Position numbers and translations under genes: made by a program. Positions 19,186 through 29,928 of a stretch of DNA of 39,307 bases are shown here, in pieces. The first letter of the stretch is position 1. Each line of letters starts with the position of its first letter. The DNA comes from Nocardioidaceae bacterium (GTDB lineage Bacteria; Actinomycetota; Actinomycetes; Propionibacteriales; Nocardioidaceae), in the NCBI GenBank assembly GCA_013696555.1, contig JACCYJ010000265.1:1-39307 (forward strand), in the 5' to 3' direction. The notes beneath the pieces are model-generated. The model did no database searches and was not told the origin of the DNA. It saw only the letters and a list, made by a program, of their open reading frames with translations.

Positions 19186-19426
19186 TCGCGTGTCACGCCT
19201 GCGCTACCAGTACCGATCTGACGACGACCCGGCGCGGATGCTGAAAGCGGTTCGGCAAGCCGGGCACGACGCCCACGACGAGACAAGCATCGATGGCAGC
19301 GTCTCGCTGGTGATGCTCGACGTCGGAGATCGTGAGCAGATGCGCCAGGTCCTGCGATCCGCGCGGCCGCGAGCCCGTCGTCGTCACGCTGTGCTGTTCG
19401 AGGACGAGCTAACCGGCGGCGCCTAG
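19178..19426 (+). CDS. Small protein of unknown function, coupled to def
   Basis: I do not recognise this 82-residue protein. The ATG at 19178 lies inside the last codons of def (8-nt overlap), so translation would be coupled. The sequence is charged, with RLRYQYRSDDDPARMLKAVR near the start and an Arg-rich stretch (SARPRARRRH) toward the end; no signal or membrane segment is visible. The alternation of predicted helix and strand looks like a small folded domain. The evidence is position and plausible composition only. Confidence 0.5.
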   Translation: MADRVSRLRYQYRSDDDPARMLKAVRQAGHDAHDETSIDGSVSLVMLDVGDREQMRQVLRSARPRARRRHAVLFEDELTGGA

Positions 19427-19570
19427 TCATCCCTGCCACACCTCGCAGGTGCCGCAGCTACTGCGGTCGGCGTGGGGCGCCGAGGGGCGGCGGTGGTGAG
19501 TCAGCTCGCCGATCTGCGTCGTGGAGGTGACGCTCGGCTGCGGTGATTCCCGCTGCCTTCCTGCCTCGAA

Positions 19571-19640
19571 TGGTGCGTTCGGGCGCCGCACATCGGCGTG
19601 TCGGCGGCCGCATCGCGCCAAACGAAGAGGCGGTGGCCGG
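19571..19640. repeat. Intergenic repeat B, copy 1
   Basis: Shares CATCGGCGTGTCG and CGCCAAACGAAG, in the same order, with 28041-28122. Its ends CGTTCGGGCGC and GCGCCAAACG are imperfect inverted repeats, so it can fold. It lies in the convergent interval 19427-19647 between a plus-strand gene end and the subtilase end; the rest of that interval holds smaller GC-rich inverted repeats and no gene. Confidence 0.6.
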
Positions 19641-19647
19641 GTGCCGA

Positions 19648-20460
19648 TCAGCCGGTGTCAGCGTTGTCCGCGGCTGCCTGCAGCACAGCCTTGACCTGAA
19701 ACGACGTCAAACCCGGGTGTTTGGACAACAATGCGGTGATCAGCCCTGCCACATGCGGTGTCGCGAAGCTGTTTCCGGTAGCAACGATCGAGCCACCCCC
19801 TTGCCACGCCACGTCGACATCGATGCCACACGCGCCGTACTCGACCGGCGGACGAGGGTTGTACGCGATCGCGTACGGGTCGCTGCCCGGTCGGGCCGCC
19901 ACTGAGAACACCGACGCGAACTGTGACGGATAGGTCGGCCCCGGGACATTGTTCGCCGCGCATACGAGCATGACGTTGCGGAAGTACGCCTCGTCGGCGA
20001 TATCGTGCAGCGGCCCGAACCACTGGTCACTCTTGCTGCTCAGGCTCATGTTGACGACGTTCATGCCGTTCTCCAGCGCCCAGCGGATGCCGGCGAAGAA
20101 GGTGGCACCCTTTCCCTTGAGGTTCGCGCCGAGGACTCTGACGCTGTAGATCTCAGCTTCTGGTGCCAGCATCCGGATGATCGCCGCACATGCGGTGCCG
20201 TGCCCGACGAGATCCTCGTGCAGACCGGCTACCACCTTGGTCGCGCCGTCGGCGTCCAATTCGATCGAAACCGCCCCCGCCAGACCGCCGACCCGTGGAT
20301 GGTCGGCCTCGACGCCGCTGTCCACCACCGCCACTTTCACGCCGCGTCCGGTCGCGCCGCTCCACGCCCAGTCGCGGGCCGGAAGAGGCAACGGCAACGC
20401 TGCGACGGTCTCGATTCGATCGGGGTCGAAGGCACCGGCCCAGGCAGGTAGTCCGCTCAC
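19648..20460 (-). CDS. Intracellular S8 (subtilisin-like) serine protease
   Basis: This 270-residue protein is a subtilase with its complete triad: Asp47 in AVVDSGVEADHP, His87 in GHGTACAAI and Ser231 in TGNSFATPHVAGL; Asn170 (CAANN) is placed for the oxyanion hole. There is no signal peptide, prodomain or C-terminal extension, so it probably acts in the cytoplasm. It starts within the stop of the GAF gene (ATGA), making a two-gene operon that is divergent from crp-tldD-tldE. Small cytoplasmic subtilases next to peptide-processing genes can act in peptide maturation; that role here is inference from position only. Confidence 0.92.
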   Translation of the reverse strand: MSGLPAWAGAFDPDRIETVAALPLPLPARDWAWSGATGRGVKVAVVDSGVEADHPRVGGLAGAVSIELDADGATKVVAGLHEDLVGHGTACAAIIRMLAPEAEIYSVRVLGANLKGKGATFFAGIRWALENGMNVVNMSLSSKSDQWFGPLHDIADEAYFRNVMLVCAANNVPGPTYPSQFASVFSVAARPGSDPYAIAYNPRPPVEYGACGIDVDVAWQGGGSIVATGNSFATPHVAGLITALLSKHPGLTSFQVKAVLQAAADNADTG

Positions 20461-21191
20461 CGGCGGGACCGCGCAAAGGCAGCGACCTCTTCCAGCACCC
20501 GCCGCGCCAGGACCGATGCGTCCGATCCCAGGCTGGCGAGGTCGTGGAAGGCGGCGGCCAAACCGGCAAGCTCGTCATCTTCTCTGGTGGCAAGCTCGCG
20601 CAGTGCGGCACCGAACGCCGCCTCGTCGTCCGACTGCGCAATAGCGCGCAACAGAACGGCGCCAAGGTTGTCGTAGACCTGGGCCAACCGCACGATCGAA
20701 GCAACCTGATCCCCCACGGTCCCAAGGACGTCAAGCGCGCGCCCGGTGTCGTCTGCTCCGAGCTGCGGATCGAGTGCCTCGATGACCCCGAGCACACCGC
20801 CCTCCTCGTCCATCAACGGGACCGCCAAGATGCTCGTCGGCACATAGTTGGTGGCCTCAGCGACGTCGCGGGCGTGGCGCGGGTCGCGGCTGACATCACC
20901 CACCGCTATCCCTTGACCCGCCATCGCGACCCAGCCGGCGATGCCGCGTCCCATCGGCATCGTCACGTCGATGATCGCCTGTGAGCCGGCTCCGTCGGCG
21001 GCGACAAACCGCAACGACGCACCGTCCGGCTCCACCAGCGCAACGGAACACGCCGCTGCGTCGAGCAGCTGCCGCACGCTGGCCGCCGCACGTGCCAGTT
21101 CGGCACGAAGTGTCGTCGGTCGAGTCGCTTGACCGGCGAGGTCACCGATGCGTACGAGGAGCGCGGCCAGCTCTGGCGACGGCGTAGTCAT
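20457..21191 (-). CDS. GAF-domain protein
   Basis: This 244-residue protein is dominated by one GAF domain from about residue 20 to 170 (hallmarks VALVEPDGASLRFVAADG, GRGIAGWVAMAGQGIAVGDV and YVPTSILAVPLMDEEGGVLGVIEA). The last 75 residues are helical and acidic with no output enzyme domain visible. GAF domains bind small ligands such as cyclic nucleotides, or act in dimer contacts. It is the first gene of the GAF-subtilase operon and faces the Crp-family gene across 70 bp, so both sensors could share control. The ligand is unknown. Confidence 0.85.
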   Translation of the reverse strand: MTTPSPELAALLVRIGDLAGQATRPTTLRAELARAAASVRQLLDAAACSVALVEPDGASLRFVAADGAGSQAIIDVTMPMGRGIAGWVAMAGQGIAVGDVSRDPRHARDVAEATNYVPTSILAVPLMDEEGGVLGVIEALDPQLGADDTGRALDVLGTVGDQVASIVRLAQVYDNLGAVLLRAIAQSDDEAAFGAALRELATREDDELAGLAAAFHDLASLGSDASVLARRVLEEVAAFARSRR

Positions 21192-21261: not shown

Positions 21262-21918
21262 GTGCAGTGGCAACTGCTGTCCAGCCTGTCCGAGGCAGAC
21301 AGGGCTCGCGTGCTCGACGCGACGCGACCCTGCCGCTTCGATCGTGGCGAGGTGCTCGTCCACGAGGGTGACCCAGGCGAGAGTTTGCACCTGGTACGGC
21401 GGGGCCGCCTCGGCGTGCGGGTGTCGCGTCCGACCGGGGAGTCGCTGACGTTGAACGTCCTCTCGCCGGGGGATGCATTCGGCGAGCTGGCGGCCATAGG
21501 ACAGGCGCATCGGCGCACCGCAACGGTGGTGGCATTTGAGCCCGCAGAGACCCTTGCGCTGAGCGGAACTGCTTTCCAGGCGCTCTGCCAACAGCACCCG
21601 GCCGTGGAACGGCTGGTCGTCCGCTTGCTTGTCGAACGCGTCGACCAGCTGAGCCAACGACTCATCGAGGCCTTGTACGTCGGAGTGGACCAGCGCGTGT
21701 TTCGCCGGCTCAACGAGTTGTGCGACATCTACGGTGACGGGGCGCCTGGCACCGTCATTCCGCTCACCCAGGACGATCTCGCCGGACTGGCCGGTGCCAG
21801 CCGACCGACCGTCAACCAGGTGTTGCAGCGGCTCTTGGCCGAAGGCGTTCTCGAAGTGGGTCGGGGACGACTCCGCGTGCTGGACCCGGCGGGATTGCGG
21901 CTTAGAGCCGCCGCCTGA
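21262..21918 (+). CDS. Crp/Fnr-family transcription regulator
   Basis: This is a 218-residue two-domain regulator. Residues about 10-120 are a cyclic-nucleotide-binding domain with a phosphate cassette retaining Glu and Arg (GELAAIGQAHRRTATV). The C-terminus is a winged helix with LTQDDLAGLAGASRPTVNQV as the recognition region. The GTG at 21262 fits the usual length; in-frame ATGs at 21229 and 21190 would add residues outside the fold. It lies 5 nt before tldD, so it is probably cotranscribed with tldD and tldE and may control the peptide genes beyond. Ligand binding is predicted from the cassette, not shown. Confidence 0.88.
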   Translation: MQWQLLSSLSEADRARVLDATRPCRFDRGEVLVHEGDPGESLHLVRRGRLGVRVSRPTGESLTLNVLSPGDAFGELAAIGQAHRRTATVVAFEPAETLALSGTAFQALCQQHPAVERLVVRLLVERVDQLSQRLIEALYVGVDQRVFRRLNELCDIYGDGAPGTVIPLTQDDLAGLAGASRPTVNQVLQRLLAEGVLEVGRGRLRVLDPAGLRLRAAA

Positions 21919-21923
21919 GTCGG

Positions 21924-23333
21924 ATGAACGAGCTGCCTGTCGACGACGATGACCTCGGCGCCGTGCTCTGGAGTGCCTTGCGTGCGGGCGGCCACTGGGC
22001 CGAGGTGTTCCTCGAACGGCGATCCACCGAGACTCTTCGGCTCGCCGGTGGTGGCGTTGCCGAGATCCGCAGTGACCTCGACCTCGGTGCCGGTGTCCGC
22101 GTGGTGACATCGGGTCGTGCGGGATACGCGTACACCAACATCGTGACCCGTCGTTCGCTCGTCGAAGCCGCTGAGGCCGCCGCGATCGCGAGCGGCGCCG
22201 CGTCCTCGGTACGGGCGGAACGTCCGGTCGACCTTCGGCAGCGAACCGTCTCGCCCGCGCAACACGCGCAGCGTGCTCCCGCCGACGTCACCTCGCCCGA
22301 AAAGGTTGCACTCTTGCGCCGGGTCGACGCCGCCGCCAGAGGGCGAAGCATCCAGGTACGCGACGTCACGGCAACCCATGTCGACGTAACCCAGTCGATG
22401 CTGGTGGCTACGACCGACAGCGGCATCGCCCGGGACCAGCGGGTACGGACCCGGCTCACCTGCCAGGTCACCGCCCGGCGAGACGGCCGGATGCAGACCG
22501 GCTTCGACGGGCCCGGCATCGGCGGCGGCATGGAGCTGTACAAAGGTGATGCCCCGGAAACCATCGGCGTCCGAGCCGCCGAACGTGCCGTACGCGCGCT
22601 CGATGGCATCGAGCCGCCGAACGGGCGTTTGCCCGTCGTCCTCGGGCCGTCCGGCGGCGGATTGCTTCTCCACGAGGCGTGCGGGCACGGCCTCGAGGCC
22701 GATGCCCTGACCCATGGCGGCAGCATTTACGCGCGCACCATCGGCGACCTAGTGGGCAGCGAGCTGATCACGGCGGTGGATGACCCCGGCATCGCCGGAG
22801 GATTCGGCTCGTACGGTATCGACGACGAGGGAGCCGAGGCGAGGCGCACGGTGCTGCTGGACCGTGGGATCCAGCTTGGTGCGCTGAGCGACCGCTCCAA
22901 CCCCGTCACCGGGACAACAGGGACGTCCGCCAACGGCCGGCGCGCGTCGTACGCGGATCCACCGCTGGCACGGATGAGCAACACCTATATCCGGCCCGGT
23001 TCGTCGTCAGCCCAGGATGTCCTCGGCAGCGTTGTCGACGGGATCTACGTCGCCCGGCTGCGTGGTGGTGATGTTGACGTGACGTCGGGCGAGTTCGCCT
23101 TCACCGCTGCCGAGGCTTCTCTCATCGAGGATGGTGGGATCGGTCGGCCGTTGCTCTCCCTGAGCTTGCTCGGCAACGGACCCGACGCGCTTAGATCTGT
23201 CGAAGCCGTGGCTGACGACCTCTCGTTCGTGCAGGCGCTCTGCGGCAAGGAGGGCCAGTGGGTGCCCGTCTCGTACGGCAGCCCCACCCTTCTTCTCGGC
23301 GGCATCACCGTGACGGGGTCCGGCGGTGGCTGA
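21924..23333 (+). CDS. tldD: TldD-family metalloprotease subunit
   Basis: TldD is the catalytic half of the TldD/TldE heterodimer, which in enterobacteria removes leader peptides (microcin B17 maturation) and degrades CcdA. This 469-residue protein carries the active-site motif HExxxH as HEACGHGLEAD (His250, Glu251, His255) and the C-terminal CGKEGQWVPVSYGSP segment that supplies a further metal ligand. Length is normal. It is the second gene of a crp-tldD-tldE operon and overlaps tldE by 8 nt. A set of short peptide genes lies just beyond, which makes a peptide-trimming role here plausible. Confidence 0.93.
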   Translation: MNELPVDDDDLGAVLWSALRAGGHWAEVFLERRSTETLRLAGGGVAEIRSDLDLGAGVRVVTSGRAGYAYTNIVTRRSLVEAAEAAAIASGAASSVRAERPVDLRQRTVSPAQHAQRAPADVTSPEKVALLRRVDAAARGRSIQVRDVTATHVDVTQSMLVATTDSGIARDQRVRTRLTCQVTARRDGRMQTGFDGPGIGGGMELYKGDAPETIGVRAAERAVRALDGIEPPNGRLPVVLGPSGGGLLLHEACGHGLEADALTHGGSIYARTIGDLVGSELITAVDDPGIAGGFGSYGIDDEGAEARRTVLLDRGIQLGALSDRSNPVTGTTGTSANGRRASYADPPLARMSNTYIRPGSSSAQDVLGSVVDGIYVARLRGGDVDVTSGEFAFTAAEASLIEDGGIGRPLLSLSLLGNGPDALRSVEAVADDLSFVQALCGKEGQWVPVSYGSPTLLLGGITVTGSGGG

Positions 23334-24669
23334 GCTGTTAGACCTTGCGTCGGGCATCCTCCCCTTGGCTGCACCGGGTGAGGAGTTGGAGGCGTACGCG
23401 GTCCACCGGACCTCGACGACGGTCCAGGCCGGAACTGGCGGGGTGGTCCGGAACGTGGGGAAGGCGGAGGCCCGAGGAGTCGGCGTACGACTGCTGGCCA
23501 GGACCCGCATGGGGTACGCGTCGACAGCGGACCTGTCTCGCGCCGGTCTCGCCGACGCCGTGGTTCGATCTCGCCAGAACGCTGCTGCTGCTGATCCGGA
23601 CGAGGCAGTCGCATTGCCCACGCCCGAGCCCGTCATCGCGGCAACGCAGCTATGGAACGAAGTGTTGTCCCAGCTACCGCTGGAGGCCAAGGTGGGGTTG
23701 GCGACGGATATCGCTCGGCGGGTAACGATGATCGACCCGCAGATTCGGTCGATCGACACGGCGGAGTACTACGACGAGTCGGTGGTCACCGCTGTGGCCT
23801 CCACCAGTGGTGTCCGAGTTGAGGATCGGCACGGGTACGTCGAGTTGTCCACGGACGCAATCGGAGAATCCACCGACGGTAGTGTCGCGGACTACAGCTA
23901 CTGGTGCGGACGCGATCCCGGCCTCATCGACATCGAGTGGTTGGCTGCGGAGGCGGTGTCTCGGACCATCCGGCTGATGTGCTCTTCCGCGAAGCGGCTC
24001 ACGGGCCTACCGGTCGTCCTGGACCGCGCGGTGGTCGGGTCTCTCCTGGTGGCGATCGGCCGCGCCTGCTCCGGTGGGCCGCTGTCGTCGGGGCGCAGCG
24101 CATTCGCTGATCTGCACGGTTCGCTCGTAGGAGCCGCCTCGGTAAATCTGATGGATGACGGCCGCTGTCCGGCGGCACCAGCAGCAGCGCTGATCGATGA
24201 CGAGGGAGTGCCGAGGCGAAGCACGACGCTCATCGACGGCGGCGTCCTTGTTGGCGCCTTGCACACAACGACAACAGCACGAGCGATTGGCGGGAATGCC
24301 CGAACGACGGGAAACGCGCGCCGGATAACACACAGGTCGTCGCCGCGGGCTGCCCCATCGGCGTTGGTTCTGCAGCCGACGTGCTCCCTGGCCCAGCTGT
24401 TGGCCGCGGCGGGTGACGCCACCTATCTCCAACAGGTGACTGGCAGTCAGTCCGGCATCAGCTCGGTCACGGGGCGGGTCAACGCCGGTGCTATGGGTTT
24501 CCGCCTCCGTGCGGGTGAGCCAAGTGGTCGCTTGCCAACGACAGCGGTCGCCACCAACCTGCAGGCGTTTCTGTCCTCGATCCTCATGGTCGCTGACGAC
24601 ATCCTGGCCGTACCCGACGTGCCCGTGCTTGCCGCGACGGTCTTGTGCGCGCCGGGCTGGTTGCCCTAG
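23326..24669 (+). CDS. tldE: TldE/PmbA-family protease subunit
   Basis: This 447-residue partner of TldD lacks the HExxxH motif, as expected of TldE/PmbA. It has the family's N-terminal domain (AYAVHRTSTTVQAGTGGVVRNVGKAEARGVGVRL pattern, here in two halves) and the C-terminal TGSQSGISSVTGRVNAGAMGF region that lines the cleft. The GTG start lies 8 nt inside tldD, so the two subunits are made together. Its stop codon at 24667-24669 abuts, with no spacer, the stop codon of the convergent peptide gene at 24670. Confidence 0.9.
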   Translation: MAELLDLASGILPLAAPGEELEAYAVHRTSTTVQAGTGGVVRNVGKAEARGVGVRLLARTRMGYASTADLSRAGLADAVVRSRQNAAAADPDEAVALPTPEPVIAATQLWNEVLSQLPLEAKVGLATDIARRVTMIDPQIRSIDTAEYYDESVVTAVASTSGVRVEDRHGYVELSTDAIGESTDGSVADYSYWCGRDPGLIDIEWLAAEAVSRTIRLMCSSAKRLTGLPVVLDRAVVGSLLVAIGRACSGGPLSSGRSAFADLHGSLVGAASVNLMDDGRCPAAPAAALIDDEGVPRRSTTLIDGGVLVGALHTTTTARAIGGNARTTGNARRITHRSSPRAAPSALVLQPTCSLAQLLAAAGDATYLQQVTGSQSGISSVTGRVNAGAMGFRLRAGEPSGRLPTTAVATNLQAFLSSILMVADDILAVPDVPVLAATVLCAPGWLP

Positions 24670-24819
24670 CTACTTGGGGTCGAGCGGGCCAAGCGTCGAT
24701 CGACCGTCGGCGGTCGCACGGTTGGCGGGGCTCATGTGTCCTGCAACGTCGTCTTCGGTCTCAGCCGCCTCATCGACGTTGTCGGCCACGGGCTCAGGCG
24801 CCTTGTCTGACGAGCGCAT
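24670..24819 (-). CDS. Small peptide 1, candidate precursor with DDVAGH box (49 residues)
   Basis: The ATG at 24819 has AAGGAG 6 nt upstream, a near-ideal ribosome binding site. The 49-residue product is very acidic in its first half (Asp/Glu-rich, TEDDVAGHM at 21-29) and ends with GRSTLGPLDPK. The DDVAGH box at residues 23-28 recalls the DVE(A/G)H box of the two other small peptides nearby, although what follows His differs. There is no Cys and no membrane span. It stands last in the minus-strand order peptide 3, MFS, peptide 2, peptide 1 and abuts tldE. I do not recognise the family. A TldD/E substrate is an inference from position and peptide shape. Confidence 0.7.
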   Translation of the reverse strand: MRSSDKAPEPVADNVDEAAETEDDVAGHMSPANRATADGRSTLGPLDPK

Positions 24820-24846
24820 CGCTTCTCCTTGTGCTCTGTGTTGACG

Positions 24847-24888
24847 GTGGTGGAGGCCGCACCTGCGTACGGTGCGGCCTTCCACCAC
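24847..24888 (-). terminator. Strong stem-loop between peptide 2 and peptide 1
   Basis: GTGGTGGAGGCCGCACC (24847-24863) pairs with GGTGCGGCCTTCCACCAC (24871-24888), with a single bulged T and a 7-nt loop. It lies 28 nt upstream of the peptide 1 start and 54 nt after the peptide 2 stop. There is no T-run, so it may be a leaky terminator or a stem that stabilises the upstream peptide 2 message. Confidence 0.7.
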
Positions 24889-24942
24889 ACGCCGCCTTCG
24901 GGCTACGGCGATCGGAGCATGTCGGGGTCTTGTTCTTCGACC

Positions 24943-25080
24943 TCAGTACATGCCCTTCCGGCGGTGGCCCTCGACGTCGTCGTCACCCTCGGAACCCTCG
25001 GCATCGGCGTACATGCCCCTCCGACGGTGAGCCTCGACGTCTTCGGCGGACTCGTTGTTGCCTTGCTGCTGTTCGGTCAT
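24943..25080 (-). CDS. Small peptide 2, candidate precursor with two DVExHRRxGMY repeats (45 residues)
   Basis: The ATG at 25080 is preceded by AAGGAG with a 6-nt gap. The 45-residue product has a 13-residue polar leader (MTEQQQGNNESAE), then DVEAHRRRGMY at residues 14-24, an acidic linker (ADAEGSEGDD), and DVEGHRRKGMY at residues 35-45 ending exactly at the C-terminus. The two 33-nt units differ by both synonymous and conservative changes, which argues for selection on the protein. Length and leader match peptide 3, which has the same box at the same residues. A repeated, sharply bounded core in a tiny acidic gene beside TldD/TldE and an exporter is the usual look of a ribosomally made, modified peptide. 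No modifying enzyme apart from the protease is evident. Confidence 0.8.
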   Translation of the reverse strand: MTEQQQGNNESAEDVEAHRRRGMYADAEGSEGDDDVEGHRRKGMY

Positions 25081-25150
25081 GACCTGCTCCTTACCGTTTC
25101 CGTCCGGCATTTGCACCGGCTAGCCACCAGGATTACTGGTAATGGTCTCT

Positions 25151-25161
25151 TCGTACCGTCG
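25151..25161 (-). promoter_or_regulatory. Shared upstream motif of peptide 2
   Basis: TCGTACCGTCG (CGACGGTACGA on the gene strand) lies 70 nt before the peptide 2 start; the same 11-mer lies 61 nt before the peptide 3 start. It may be part of a promoter or an operator. Nearby, ACCAG-GATTA-CTGGT at 25126-25140 is a small palindrome. The surrounding 25162-25197 is unusually A/T-rich for this genome. Confidence 0.4.
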
Positions 25162-25197
25162 CCTGGCTGACACAAATGACAACAAATTTCTCACCCA

Positions 25198-26886
25198 TCA
25201 ACCTCCCGGGCTCGCAGCCAGTCCCAACCCCCTCGAGGGGTGCGTCCTGCTGAGACGGGCCGACGCCCCCTCCAGCAGGGCCGCCGAGGGCCCCGCCTCG
25301 GTCAAGGCGTCGGTGAAGTCGTCACCGGGCACCCGCAGCAGACGGGACGGGTCCAACGACACGACCGTCGCAGTACGAGGTGTCTGCTCGATCAATCCGA
25401 TCTCCCCGAAGTACTCTCCGGGGCACAGGTCCCGAATCCGCTTCTCATCGAGCGCCTCTCCATGTGCCGACACCGTCATCCGCCCCTGGACTATGACGTA
25501 GAAAGCGTCGGCCTCCTCACCCTCTCGTACGATTGCCACTCCAGCCGGCACGTCCACGTACTCCGCGGCACCCGCCAGTTGTTCGACCGCGCCGGACGAG
25601 CTCGACTCGAAGAGGTCACAGCCCTCCAACCACCGCACCGCAGGTGCCAGCTCGGCTTTCCGTTTCGCGGACTGCCGGTCCATGACTCGCAGCGCCGGTA
25701 CGCCAAGCAGGCACAGCAGCGGCACGCCTGCACCCGCCAGCCACAGAGTTGCGTCGAATCCGAACACATCGATGGCCAACGGAGTAAGCAATGCGGCGAG
25801 AACGATCGAACCCAGAACCAGCGCGCCAAAGACTCCGAAAACCCTCGCCGTCTGCGTGGAGGGCAGCGCCCGCTGCAACGCGGTCACCGCCAATACGTCG
25901 ACGACGATGGTGCCCGCTCCCCGGACGACCTCTACGACGAACCCCAAAACGGGGCTAGAGGTTGTCAGGAAGAGAAGTGTCGGCAGGCAGTAGAACGCGA
26001 TCCCCACCAAGATCACGGGGCCGAGTTGAGGAAGCCTTTCGATCCGCGGGATGAACCCCGCGATGAGGATTCCGCCGACGCCAAGGCCCATGAGCAGGTA
26101 CCCATATCCCTCCGCACCGGTTCCTAGGATGTCACGAGAGAGAACGACGAACTGCACCGTGTCCACGCCATATACGAAGCTCGCGACGAGACTGAATGCC
26201 ACGAGAACCGCAGCTGTCTGCGACGCCATAATCGCCTTGACACCTACCAACATCTGGCGAAGTGGACCGACGTCGCCGCCTTCGGTGACGTCCACAGTCC
26301 TGCTCCTCGTGCGGACGCGACTCACGACGACAGCGGACAGCAGGAAGCTGACCGCGTTGAGCAAGATGCATGCCCACGCGGGGCCACCCAGAAGCATGAG
26401 TGCCCCAAGCGCCGGGCCGGCGATGACGACCAGTTCTTCGACGGTGTTCCGCAGGGCGTTCGCGGACCCGAGATCTCGCTCCCCCACCACCTGGGGCGTC
26501 AGCGCCGCCGATGCGGGCTCGTACACCGTGCCGATGGTTGACGCGACCGCAGCGGCCACTATGGCTAGCACCACCGGTGCATGGGCCGCTGTCAACAGCG
26601 CAAGCACCACCATGACCGCAGCGGATGAGAGATCGAGCACCACCATGAGCCGAACCCGTTCGAAGCGCTCCGCGATCACCCCCGCGTACGCGCTGAACAG
26701 CAGGGCGGGCACGAACCGTCCGATCGTGGCGGCGCCCACCCAACCTGCTGACCCGGTTTCTTGAAAGATCCAGACCGTAATCGCCACTGCGTATGCCCAA
26801 GAACATGCGAAGGAAACGGTCGACGCACCCATGAGCAGCCGGAAGTCCCGGTGCCGAAGGCTTGTCAGTATGGCGGGTCGCTTCAC
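25198..26886 (-). CDS. MFS transporter with C-terminal cyclic-nucleotide-binding domain
   Basis: This 562-residue membrane protein has about twelve hydrophobic spans in residues 1-405, and an MFS-type loop AGVIAERFERVR after the second span. Residues about 415-545 are a soluble CNB domain with a phosphate cassette retaining Glu and Arg (GEYFGEIGLIEQTPRTATV). Export could thus be gated by a cyclic nucleotide. The start is GTG at 26886 with GGAG 10 nt upstream; an ATG at 26912 is in a frame that stops at once. It lies between peptide 3 and peptide 2 in the same direction, which suits a peptide exporter or immunity pump, but MFS substrates cannot be read from sequence. Confidence 0.88.
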   Translation of the reverse strand: MKRPAILTSLRHRDFRLLMGASTVSFACSWAYAVAITVWIFQETGSAGWVGAATIGRFVPALLFSAYAGVIAERFERVRLMVVLDLSSAAVMVVLALLTAAHAPVVLAIVAAAVASTIGTVYEPASAALTPQVVGERDLGSANALRNTVEELVVIAGPALGALMLLGGPAWACILLNAVSFLLSAVVVSRVRTRSRTVDVTEGGDVGPLRQMLVGVKAIMASQTAAVLVAFSLVASFVYGVDTVQFVVLSRDILGTGAEGYGYLLMGLGVGGILIAGFIPRIERLPQLGPVILVGIAFYCLPTLLFLTTSSPVLGFVVEVVRGAGTIVVDVLAVTALQRALPSTQTARVFGVFGALVLGSIVLAALLTPLAIDVFGFDATLWLAGAGVPLLCLLGVPALRVMDRQSAKRKAELAPAVRWLEGCDLFESSSSGAVEQLAGAAEYVDVPAGVAIVREGEEADAFYVIVQGRMTVSAHGEALDEKRIRDLCPGEYFGEIGLIEQTPRTATVVSLDPSRLLRVPGDDFTDALTEAGPSAALLEGASARLSRTHPSRGLGLAASPGG

Positions 26887-26922
26887 GACCGGACCACTCC
26901 GGAGCCGGTCATGACGAGCGGA

Positions 26923-27060
26923 TCAGCGGGTGGGTGGAGCGGAAGGTGGGGTGGGGTACGCGTCGTCGATGGCCGAGTCGGCGTCCAGGAAGTGGCCGAA
27001 GCGGCCGTGCCCCTCGACGTCGTCGGCGTCGGAGTCGGCTTCGTGCGGCTGGTCGGTCAT
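26923..27060 (-). CDS. Small peptide 3, candidate precursor with DVEGH box (45 residues)
   Basis: The ATG at 27060 has GAGGAG with a 5-nt gap. The product is 45 residues, exactly the length of peptide 2. A 13-residue acidic leader (MTDQPHEADSDAD) is followed by DVEGHGRFGHF at residues 14-24, the same positions as the first box of peptide 2. The second half (LDADSAIDDAYPTPPSAPPTR) has no second box and is Pro-rich. Together the boxes give the consensus DVE-(A/G)-H-(R/G)-R-x-G-(M/H)-(Y/F). It precedes the MFS gene by 36 nt in the same direction and is divergent from the metallo-hydrolase gene. The family is not one I recognise. Confidence 0.78.
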   Translation of the reverse strand: MTDQPHEADSDADDVEGHGRFGHFLDADSAIDDAYPTPPSAPPTR

Positions 27061-27121
27061 CAGGTCTCCTCACTCGGCTCCCCGCGGGGCGCAGACTGTC
27101 AGCATCGCGCCCGGACATCAG

Positions 27122-27132
27122 TCGTACCGTCG
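27122..27132 (-). promoter_or_regulatory. Shared upstream motif of peptide 3
   Basis: The same 11-mer as at 25151-25161 (CGACGGTACGA on the gene strand), 61 nt before the peptide 3 start, in the divergent interval with the metallo-hydrolase gene. Confidence 0.4.
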
Positions 27133-27177
27133 TCGACCTAACAGAATGCTGTCACCAACACCAGGTGTCCAGCCCCC

Positions 27178-27183
27178 TAGGCT
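27178..27183 (+). promoter_or_regulatory. Likely -10 box of the metallo-hydrolase gene
   Basis: TAGGCT lies 8 nt before the ATG at 27192, with no ribosome binding site between. Confidence 0.4.
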
Positions 27184-27191
27184 GTCTGGCC

Positions 27192-28019
27192 ATGCGCATC
27201 GTCCTCCACGGGGTCCGGGGCTCGACTCCCGCCCCGGGGGCGGACTTCCTTCGCGTCGGCGGCAGCACGTCATGTCTCGGAGTGGCCCCTATGGGCTCTG
27301 CTGCCCCAACACTGCTTTTGGACGCCGGGACCGGATTATCGTCAGTCAGCCGTTCGTTGGCCGGGGCTCCCTTCGTCGGTGACATCTTGTTGACGCACCT
27401 CCACTGGGACCACGTTCAGGGATTGCCGTTCTTCCGAGCGGGTGACCGTGATGATGCCGCGGTCAGGCTGATGCTTCCCGCGCAGTGCGAAGCGTCACCC
27501 GATCGTCCCGGCTCGGCCGCCGAGCTCCTCGGTCGTTCGATGTCGCCGCCCCACTTCCCCATCGGGCCTGACGGGTTGCGAGGCGATTGGACGTTCGACG
27601 CCATTGCCGAAGGCAGCTTCGTGGCAGGCGGTTGTACGGTGACGGCCGTCGAGGTGCCCCATAAGGGCGGCCGGACGTTCGGTTACCGGGTCGAGGCTGA
27701 CGGCGCGAGTCTCGCGTACCTGCCGGACCACCACCCGGCGATCGACCCCGGCCCCGGGCTCGAGCTAGCGCGTGACGTCGACGCGCTGTGCCACGGGGCC
27801 ATGTTCGCCGACTCAGAGCGCGCAATCGCCCATGCGTACGGCCATGCGACCCTCGGTGAAACACACCGGTTGGCTCAGGAAGCCGGCGTCGGCCGGCTCG
27901 TACTCATCCACCATGCGCCCTCGCGTACCGACGACGAGATCGACGCGTTGGCGCGGCAAATCCCCGCGGACGACCCGCCGGTGTCGGTCGGCCGCGAAGG
28001 CGACGTCGTGCTCGGGTGA
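27192..28019 (+). CDS. Metallo-beta-lactamase-fold hydrolase (possible phosphodiesterase type)
   Basis: This 275-residue protein has the binuclear metal motif HxHxDH as LTHLHWDHVQGLPFF (His69, His71, Asp73, His74). The N-terminus RIVLHGVRGSTPAPG and the late HAYGHATLGET and LVLIHHAPSRTDDE segments place it in the RNase Z/phosphodiesterase-like branch and not the lactamase branch. Relatives with this motif include cyclic-nucleotide phosphodiesterases, and three CNB-domain genes lie close by, so cNMP hydrolysis is a reasonable guess. There is no signal peptide. It is transcribed away from peptide 3 and ends convergent with the CNB protein gene, with repeat B between them. Confidence 0.85.
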   Translation: MRIVLHGVRGSTPAPGADFLRVGGSTSCLGVAPMGSAAPTLLLDAGTGLSSVSRSLAGAPFVGDILLTHLHWDHVQGLPFFRAGDRDDAAVRLMLPAQCEASPDRPGSAAELLGRSMSPPHFPIGPDGLRGDWTFDAIAEGSFVAGGCTVTAVEVPHKGGRTFGYRVEADGASLAYLPDHHPAIDPGPGLELARDVDALCHGAMFADSERAIAHAYGHATLGETHRLAQEAGVGRLVLIHHAPSRTDDEIDALARQIPADDPPVSVGREGDVVLG

Positions 28020-28040
28020 GCACTCGGAGCACACCTGGCA

Positions 28041-28122
28041 TCGTTCGGCGCGTTGCGGCGACTGTCATCGGCGTGTCGCCGACCGGAGTCCGCCAAACGA
28101 AGGGGCCGTACTTGCTGGGGTG
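28041..28122. repeat. Intergenic repeat B, copy 2
   Basis: CGTTCGGCGCGTTGCGGCGAC is partly complementary to GTCGCCGACCGGAGTCCGCC and the AAACG after it, giving an imperfect hairpin of about 22-nt arms. CATCGGCGTGTCG and CGCCAAACGAAG are shared with the copy near 19571. Like that copy, it lies between the ends of two convergent genes, where it may stop transcription from both sides. Confidence 0.65.
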
Positions 28123-28142
28123 CGGCGCGACGTCCTAGCGAG

Positions 28143-28811
28143 TCACGCCATGGCGGATCGAGCGGCCTCACACTGGCGTAGCCGACCGCAGACGTTCACC
28201 AGCAGGGTGTGGGCCACGTCAGGATGGGTCTTGATCACCTGGTTGAACTCGAATCTGTCGATCGCGAATGTCTTCATCCCGTCGTCACCAGCCTTGACTG
28301 TCGCCGAGCGGGGCTTGCCGTCGATCAGCGAGATCTCACCGAAGTAGTCTCCGGGCTTCAGCTCACCCCGAGCCGATCCGCCCACGGTCACCTGGGCACT
28401 GCCGTCCATGACGTAGTGGAAGGCAGCGGCGCCACGACCTTCAGCAGCGACTTCCCTACCGGGCTTGTGGTCGACCTCGCGACCACCCTCGATCAGTTGC
28501 CTCAGCACTCGCTTGGGACAGCCGGCGAACAGCCGCACTTCCCCGAGCCGGGTTGCGATGTCGTCGCTCAATCTGGCCACCTCCTGCGGTCTGCTCACCT
28601 TAGAGGCCAGGATCATTCGTTCGCCAGAGTCACCGGCAGGCTGGGGTCGGCGAACACCTTCCCTCGTTGACTGCGGTTTGACCGCCTTCCGCTGCAACAA
28701 GAGTTCGCTAGGATTCTGCTCTTCGCACACGCGATGCGGGGATGGTGCCTTCCGATCGCGGTAGTCACCGCCGCACGCGAGTTTTTCCCTAGCGAGAGCC
28801 TCGTCGGACAT
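28143..28811 (-). CDS. Cyclic-nucleotide-binding domain protein
   Basis: This 222-residue protein has a single CNB domain in residues about 95-215, with the phosphate cassette GDYFGEISLIDGKPRSATV retaining Glu and Arg. No DNA-binding or enzyme domain follows, so it resembles a stand-alone cNMP sensor or regulatory subunit. The first 70-90 residues are polar, Arg/Lys/Pro-rich and probably disordered. The ATG at 28811 (GAGGA with a 5-nt gap) is chosen; a TTG at about 28571, with GGAGG 8 nt upstream, would give a domain-only protein and cannot be ruled out. It follows cobT by 43 nt on the same strand. Confidence 0.8.
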   Translation of the reverse strand: MSDEALAREKLACGGDYRDRKAPSPHRVCEEQNPSELLLQRKAVKPQSTREGVRRPQPAGDSGERMILASKVSRPQEVARLSDDIATRLGEVRLFAGCPKRVLRQLIEGGREVDHKPGREVAAEGRGAAAFHYVMDGSAQVTVGGSARGELKPGDYFGEISLIDGKPRSATVKAGDDGMKTFAIDRFEFNQVIKTHPDVAHTLLVNVCGRLRQCEAARSAMA

Positions 28812-28854
28812 CTCAATCCTCGGCTTCACGGGTTCAGTCGCCCGGCGTCTGACA

Positions 28855-29928
28855 TCAGCCACGCCTGCTGACACCGGCCGACTCAAAGGTCGCCATCTCG
28901 CCGAGCAATGCGGCTGCGCTTCGGACCAACGGCAAGGCGAGAACCGCTCCGGTTCCCTCGCCCAGACGCAGCCCCAGATCGAGAAGCGGGGCCAGCCCCA
29001 GCCGAGCTAGCGCATGCGAGTGTCCCGCCTCGGCACTGAGGTGCCCGGCGATGCAGTAGTCGATCGCCAGCGGCTGGATTCTCTGGGCAACGAGGGCCGC
29101 CGCCGACGCGATGACCCCGTCGAGGATCACCGGGGTTCGGGTGCCGGCGGTTGCCAGGATCAGTCCCGCGAGGGCCGCGTGCTCCAGCCCGCCGAGGCAC
29201 GCCAGCACACGGATCGGGTCGTCGGATCGTGGCCGGTGCAGTGTCAGAGCCGTCTCGATGACCTCAATCTTGCGACGCCAGGTTTCGTCGTCGACGCCGG
29301 TCCCTCGACCGGTCACCTCGGTCGGCGGGGCGCCGGTGAAGGCCGCTATCAGGGCCGCGGAGGCGGTGGTGTTCGCGATGCCCATGTCGCCTGTGAGAAG
29401 ACAGTCAGTCCCCGCTGCGATCAACTCGCGTGCCGTCTCGACACCGACTCGAAGCGCCATGAGCGCCTGCGTGCGACTCATCGCCGGTTCACTACTCAAG
29501 TCGGCAGTTCCCGCGCGTACCCGGCGGGACAACACGTTGTCAGAGAGGGATACGGCCGAGGCGACGCCGACATCGAGCACTATCACCTCGGCCCCCACCT
29601 GCCGAGCCAGCACGTTGACCGCAGCGCCCCCTGCGCCGACGGTCGCCACCATCTGCGCGGTCACCCGCTGCGGCCAGGGCGTGACGCCGCGGGCGTGGAC
29701 ACCGTGGTCGCCCGCGGCCACGACGACGGTCGCCCGTTTCGGAACGGGAGGTGGGCACACCCCGGCCATCGCTGCCAGTGCCAGACCGAGTTCCTCCAGG
29801 CGCCCCAAAGCTCCAGCTGGTTTGGTGAGGGCAGCATTTTGTGCGACCGCCTCCGTCCACGCTGCCTGGTCCAGCGGTTCGATGCTTCCCGCGACACGCT
29901 CGACCAACTCGTCACCGATCCGCTCCAC
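28855..29928 (-). CDS. cobT: Nicotinate-nucleotide--dimethylbenzimidazole phosphoribosyltransferase
   Basis: CobT activates the lower-ligand base dimethylbenzimidazole for cobalamin assembly. This 357-residue protein has AALTKPAGALGRLEELG near the start, VVVAAGDHGVHARGVTPWP, TGDMGIANTTASAAL, and the catalytic Glu at about position 324 in LGEGTGAVLALP. The GTG at 29928 is chosen because AAGGAGG lies about 7 nt upstream; an in-frame start at 29994 would add 22 residues before the fold. No other cobalamin gene and no cobalamin riboswitch is visible nearby, so it may be an isolated salvage or repair copy. Confidence 0.93.
   Translation of the reverse strand: MERIGDELVERVAGSIEPLDQAAWTEAVAQNAALTKPAGALGRLEELGLALAAMAGVCPPPVPKRATVVVAAGDHGVHARGVTPWPQRVTAQMVATVGAGGAAVNVLARQVGAEVIVLDVGVASAVSLSDNVLSRRVRAGTADLSSEPAMSRTQALMALRVGVETARELIAAGTDCLLTGDMGIANTTASAALIAAFTGAPPTEVTGRGTGVDDETWRRKIEVIETALTLHRPRSDDPIRVLACLGGLEHAALAGLILATAGTRTPVILDGVIASAAALVAQRIQPLAIDYCIAGHLSAEAGHSHALARLGLAPLLDLGLRLGEGTGAVLALPLVRSAAALLGEMATFESAGVSRRG

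Follow-up and report, generated by a model that had tools for sequence, protein, structure and literature searches.

Organization of the locus

The window, meaning the whole 39,307-nucleotide stretch of Nocardioidaceae DNA analyzed here, carries a cassette in which small peptide genes lie among genes for a protease, a transporter, and proteins with cyclic-nucleotide-binding (CNB) domains. The initial annotation of this DNA centered on positions 21262-28811; all of the items it listed exist, but the most conserved partners of the small genes lie outside it, at 19648-21191. These are a minus-strand gene for a 270-residue S8 subtilase (19648..20460; Peptidase_S8 3.6e-24), which is the candidate processing protease, and a minus-strand gene for a GAF-domain protein (20457..21191; GAF 9e-15) that overlaps it by 4 bases. 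On the plus strand are a Crp/Fnr-type regulator with cNMP-binding and HTH domains (21262..21918; cNMP_binding 1.4e-21, HTH_Crp_2 1.3e-15), for which an alternative upstream start is possible at 21148, and the genes tldD (21924..23333; PmbA_TldD_3rd 3.3e-50) and tldE (23326..24669; PF01523, PF19289, and NCBIfam PmbA/TldD matches). Pfam and NCBIfam thus bear out the names first given to this pair, both of which are neighbors specific to the genus of the window.

The three small genes proposed earlier, of 45, 45, and 49 residues with ribosome binding sites, are all found on the minus strand, and each has a good Shine-Dalgarno sequence, AGGAG or GAGGAG, 5' of its ATG. P1 (24670..24819; 49 residues) has AAGGAG upstream and contains a single DDVAGH box. 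P2 (24943..25080; 45 residues) has EDVEAH-RRRGMY as one unit and DDDVEGH-RRKGMY as another, and the protein ends with the latter. P3 (26923..27060; 45 residues) contains a DDVEGHGRFG box followed by an acidic, proline-rich tail. Between P3 and P2 sits the gene for the candidate exporter (25198..26886, minus strand), an MFS transporter that, as first described, is fused to a CNB domain (MFS_3 5.3e-22, C-terminal cNMP_binding 1.3e-19). The resulting order on the minus strand, P3, CNB-MFS, P2, and P1, makes a single transcript possible. The metallo-hydrolase that had been predicted proves to be a Lactamase_B_2 protein of the MBL fold (27192..28019, plus strand; 1.2e-20), resembling RNase Z and cyclic-nucleotide phosphodiesterases at scores below the model cut-offs (NF041851 1.1e-11). 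It and a further cNMP-binding-domain protein (28143..28886, minus strand; cNMP_binding 3.8e-11), also found in the sister genome, are local partners.

In that sister genome, the second of the genus, the cassette is split over two contigs. The first carries peptide deformylase, a further two-box peptide, S8, GAF, Crp, and tldD, and the second carries tldE, P2, CNB-MFS, P3, the MBL hydrolase, the CNB protein, and a cyclase. The extra two-box peptide lies between the peptide deformylase gene and S8 (L071:1734-1898, on the same contig as L099); no box ORF matching it was seen in the window at 19186-19647.

The small genes belong to a real conserved family, beyond what chance would produce. P2 and P3 have orthologues at the same positions in the sister genome, with dN/dS of about 0.25 for P2 (32 codons) and about 0.54 for P3 (45 codons), values that come from very few sites. 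Among 89 boxes from 25 peptides there are 37 different codon combinations for the one box, indicating that the motif is kept at the protein level. The complete genome contains five exact DNA matches to DVE[GA]H, three of them within P2 and P3. P1 is the weakest of the three small genes, with no orthologue seen in the sister genome, and its DDVAGH box is also present in peptides of two other loci (L100 and L102). P1, P2, P3, and their long relatives have no meaningful match in Pfam or NCBIfam; DUF6982 gave one sub-threshold match, on a repetitive protein.

Anatomy of the box peptides

Common to P1, P2, and P3 is a D[DE]V[EA][GA]H box, which in relatives takes the form of a D/E-rich stretch followed by [VT]-E-G-H. 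The boxes are mostly in tandem with a spacing peak at 16 residues, and their number ranges from 1 to 9 or more, with eight in G023 (six then followed by KLARTNF), seven in G090, five in G227, and three in G007. Each box has a net charge of -2 to -7 and is followed by a basic segment. The mean charge of the four residues after the box histidine is +1.32, compared with -0.25 expected (sd 0.11) when the non-box residues are shuffled inside each peptide. If each of the 29 peptides is represented by its last box alone, the charge after that box is positive in 23 and negative in none. In 18 of 28 multi-box precursors the C-terminus falls 3-7 residues past the last box (null mean 8.6, p 2.5e-4), although P1 and P3 are exceptions to this short-tail rule. 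The sequences share ancestry and tandem copies do not count as independent observations, so the p values of these tests serve as guides only.

The tail that follows the last box matches the internal segments by residue class in seven peptides, with the segments RVLR (two loci), LRAPGR, [KR]LRGTT, VRRPL, G[FY][KR]RP, and, in P2, RR[KR]GMY. The simplest reading of these tails is that the segment after the box would be the product. P3-related tails of the form EGHGRFG(Q/M)FL are found in the sister genome and in G185.

Alternatively, the box proteins may not be precursors at all, but binding modules in which acidic residues and histidine hold a metal or a protein partner, making them a multivalent scaffold, buffer, or regulatory ligand of S8-GAF and its cyclic-nucleotide circuit. 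This would account for conservation that is much stronger in the box than in the intervening segments, for the wide range in copy number, and for members that are rich in histidine (L132). It does not account for precursor ends that coincide with segment ends, for tails that repeat the internal segments in the seven peptides, or for the consistent basic charge after the box, and the most constant partner of these proteins is a protease. We therefore regard it as rather unlikely.

Distribution of the family

Homology searches with a single 45-residue peptide returned mostly noise, and it was S8 and CNB-MFS that worked as anchors. CNB-MFS orthologues that adjoin box peptides are 74, 57, and 50 percent identical to that of the window. 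Loci in other genera, reached through either anchor, contain S8, GAF, Crp, usually CNB-MFS, and ORFs with repeated boxes. In line with the earlier proposal, the small genes form a real conserved family and look like precursors. When about 85,000 species genomes were scanned with an S8 alignment, the best 80 of 448 relatives were taken as loci; among these best 80, 23 ORFs in 21 loci have at least two copies of [DE][VT]EGH, while five permuted motifs gave zero ORFs with two copies. Under looser criteria, in which ORFs were partly accepted by eye, a box ORF is found in 36 of 86 S8 rows and in 16 of the 18 within the window's own S8 clade. Where a single box occurred in an ORF that was basic or long (L104, L112, L149, and a further case in each of L114 and L129), it was judged by eye to be chance; the permuted motifs gave 5-7 such matches.

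Loci with box ORFs occur in Actinomycetota (including Acidimicrobiia and Gaiellaceae), Chloroflexota/Thermomicrobiota, and Dormibacterota. The presence of a box is clustered on the S8 tree, with 15 changes compared with 27.6 in shuffles, and several gains or losses are needed. Around half of the S8 loci are without a box ORF, the Streptomyces/Nonomuraea clade included and some on short contigs, so that other substrates of S8 may exist there. Six loci of the Streptomyces, Rhodococcus, and Nonomuraea type (L145, L146, L157, L159, L164, and L166) keep S8, GAF, and a cyclase, with no box peptide found.

Among 298 genomes sampled from the order, S8 is present in 10 and the tandem-box pattern in 7. 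In four of these seven (G007, G023, G090, and G227), each of which also has S8, several V/T boxes are spaced in register, whereas the other three are single matches with alanine codons in S8-negative genomes and look like chance. In-register tandem boxes are thus found in 4 of 10 genomes with S8 and in 0 of 288 others (p ~6e-7, a hand calculation made after setting aside the three S8-negative single matches). The pattern is insensitive and misses the window itself because one P2 box has alanine in place of glycine. In a sample of the phylum, an exact scan for tandem boxes found 2 of 397 genomes, neither with S8, and one of these (G524) has a real box peptide beside cyclases. At L098:745-9045, a four-repeat peptide with KMPREDMAG after the box has as neighbors a Crp-type gene and two large genes of the cyclase type; its genome has no detectable S8 orthologue, and the contig ends nearby.

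The subtilase and its partners

Of the two proteases and processing enzymes initially put forward as partners of the small genes, the subtilase and TldD/TldE, it is the subtilase that holds. S8 is located with box peptides in many genera and is their most constant partner. The catalytic triad, Asp47, His87, and Ser231, is invariant in 11 orthologues. The protein starts around 45 residues before the catalytic aspartate, and no signal peptide or hydrophobic leader was seen in it. Among solved structures it is closest to subtilisins, and the matches include an intracellular serine protease. When the genes of 88 loci were clustered, S8/GAF was found at 78, CNB-MFS at 41, Crp/CNB at 38, and a class III cyclase at 20. 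The GAF protein is likely to regulate S8. CNB-MFS, which had been singled out earlier as a neighbor of the small genes, is thus a recurrent one, and its gene neighborhood makes it a candidate exporter of the peptides. An apparent "FHA cluster" in the same analysis is a mixture, mainly of ABC ATPases.

The recurrence of Crp/CNB proteins, CNB-MFS, and cyclases points to a cyclic nucleotide as the likely signal of the cassette, with the caution that CNB domains can bind other ligands, as does that of the exporter HetC, which binds ppGpp (PMC10986499). No cyclase lies beside the cassette on the window's contig, and several are found elsewhere in its genome. In one relative the neighboring cyclase is a cyclase-AAA-TPR protein in which TPR repeats are present.

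These components also invite comparison with cyclic-nucleotide defense systems of the Pycsar type, in which the subtilase and box proteins would make up an effector branch. PADLOC models for Pycsar match the CNB domains, the Crp-type regulator, and the cyclase of a relative, and a PADLOC model named "subtilase" matches S8. However, these matches reflect generic similarities of CNB, cyclase, and S8 domains. Pycsar is defined by a pyrimidine cyclase together with a CNB-TIR or CNB-TM effector, and here generic cyclase and CNB matches are what is observed, with no TIR effector among the proteins scanned and a cyclase in the relative that is of the cyclase-AAA-TPR kind. A defense role of this type appears very improbable.

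At L068:8673-11124, an MBL hydrolase 52 percent identical to that of the window adjoins CNB-MFS. Neither S8 nor a box peptide was found beside them, and MBL and CNB-MFS may be a pair of their own.

TldD and TldE as a local addition

Microcin B17 is a TldD/E-processed peptide, and the likeness to such systems is that, in the genus of the window, the TldD/E pair physically adjoins the small genes. Each of its two genomes has tldD/tldE flanked by the Crp gene on one side and the small genes on the other, and elsewhere TldD/E trims the leaders of RiPPs with little sequence dependence (PMC10885120). The initial annotation pictured a natural product that depends on TldD/E for leader trimming and on the MFS protein for export. 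Conservation of the small genes next to tldD/tldE or the CNB-MFS gene had been set as a test, and the outcome is divided: it holds for CNB-MFS and fails for TldD/E. Neither protein is found at any S8/peptide locus outside the genus, and the TldD/E domain PF19289 is missing from the whole genome in five near-complete, peptide-bearing cases (G007, G023, G297, G227, and G185); in G090, which also bears peptides, the pair is far away in the genome. The lack of a modification enzyme was remarked on at the outset, and none recurs across the 88 loci, where S8/GAF, CNB-MFS, Crp, and cyclase are the recurrent families; unclustered enzymes may lie elsewhere in the genomes. This result and the lack of a match to any known precursor family model set the cassette apart from known RiPP clusters. 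A product that depends on TldD/E is very improbable, and TldD/E as the core enzyme is rejected.

TldD/E is instead a local addition in the genus of the window, where it may carry out secondary trimming. At E<=1e-60, nothing in the 148 other genomes sampled from the order matches the TldD of the window. The window's genome has a second TldD/E pair (G000:C6:6822-9595), which makes the pair in the window an extra copy.

Proposed mechanism

Starting from the repeats, charge pattern, and peptide ends of the family, the S8-GAF association, and the intact triad, we infer that the products of the small genes are multi-copy precursors, cut at the box by the subtilase into short peptides that are exported under cyclic-nucleotide control, a model to which we give roughly even chances. 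In each unit of the precursor an acidic spacer would precede a D[DE][VT]EGH recognition box, which a short basic segment would follow. A cytosolic subtilase, made together with the GAF protein, would recognize the box and cut at its end or close to it, possibly following the histidine, so that P2 would yield basic segments such as RRRGMY and RRKGMY. The freed peptides would be exported by CNB-MFS and could act as signals or as antimicrobials. A cyclic nucleotide would control both synthesis and export through the Crp-type regulator and CNB-MFS, with a class III cyclase encoded alongside in many relatives.

A fuller version is more tentative: it is possible, at rather less than even chances, that this is an undescribed class in at least three phyla, combining tandem DVEGH precursors, a GAF-controlled intracellular subtilase, a cyclic-nucleotide-gated MFS, a cyclase (AAA-TPR) acting as a sensor in feedback, and peptides that serve as messengers or antimicrobials. 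If the model is correct, the ribosomal repeat peptides would be extended by a large family, and the system would tie peptide processing and export to cyclic-nucleotide signaling in Actinomycetota and Chloroflexota.

Relation to known systems

The DVEGH peptides are apparently a wide, undescribed bacterial family. No Pfam or NCBIfam model for them was found, nor, in open-access text, a relevant bacterial paper on the motif or on combinations of the partners. Current mining tools probably miss the family because it offers neither a precursor model nor a modification enzyme as a handle; the box provides one that can be searched. A multi-copy precursor cut by a subtilase is already known from cyanobactins, and what differs here is the motif, the partners, and the control. 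There is a fair chance that the system merits a class of its own.

Cyanobactin precursors can hold several cores each. Their processing also relies on a subtilisin-type protease and a short motif, and with subtilases of the PatA type the cut follows G(L/V)E(A/P)S (PMC10885120), which aligns with DVEGH over five positions. The alignment suggests where the cut might fall, though it is not evidence of a cut site. Unlike cyanobactin loci, the loci described here have no PatA/PatG architecture (TIGR03895 scores 23.6 bits, with the cut-off at 421), no C-terminal recognition sequence of the AYDG type, and no recurrent heterocyclase or other modification gene, and S8 is a lone 270-residue catalytic domain with a GAF partner. 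Models for NHLM/TOMM cassettes with a CNB protein likewise show similarity at the domain level only (TIGR03896, 36.1 bits against 161; TIGR03903, 76.5 against 706).

RRNPPA quorum sensing includes tandem propeptides in which several short peptides per precursor are possible, and these are processed outside the cell after secretion (PMC11343458). Short polar or basic C-terminal products, here proposed ones, would be common to both systems, and in many relatives a TPR protein, the cyclase, is near the cassette. In contrast, the protease here is without a signal peptide and the proposed exporter is CNB-MFS, and the N-termini of P1-P3, like those of the other precursors, are by inspection polar and acidic and not those of secreted propeptides with a signal sequence. 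HetC offers a parallel of another kind, as a peptide exporter with a cyclic-nucleotide-binding-type domain that is required for function. It is, however, an ABC transporter with its own C39 peptidase and with ppGpp as the best ligand in vitro (PMC10986499), whereas the present cassette pairs an MFS protein with a separate serine protease.

In G007 a second box peptide (L217:7462-9276) lies around 12 kb from the first, and the two share a similar N-terminus (EKPxDEGIxSGRI) and C-terminus (GVRVKI and GIRIKI), making them paralogues conserved at both ends. Longer cationic segments are found in others, including AQKKAKSRAHKKADS in L120 and, in two Chloroflexi loci (L128:4974-5513 and L175:1338-1736), IAKIAKIAKI between DDDDTEGH boxes; the latter segments look like cationic amphipathic peptides that would be restrained by acidic spacers.
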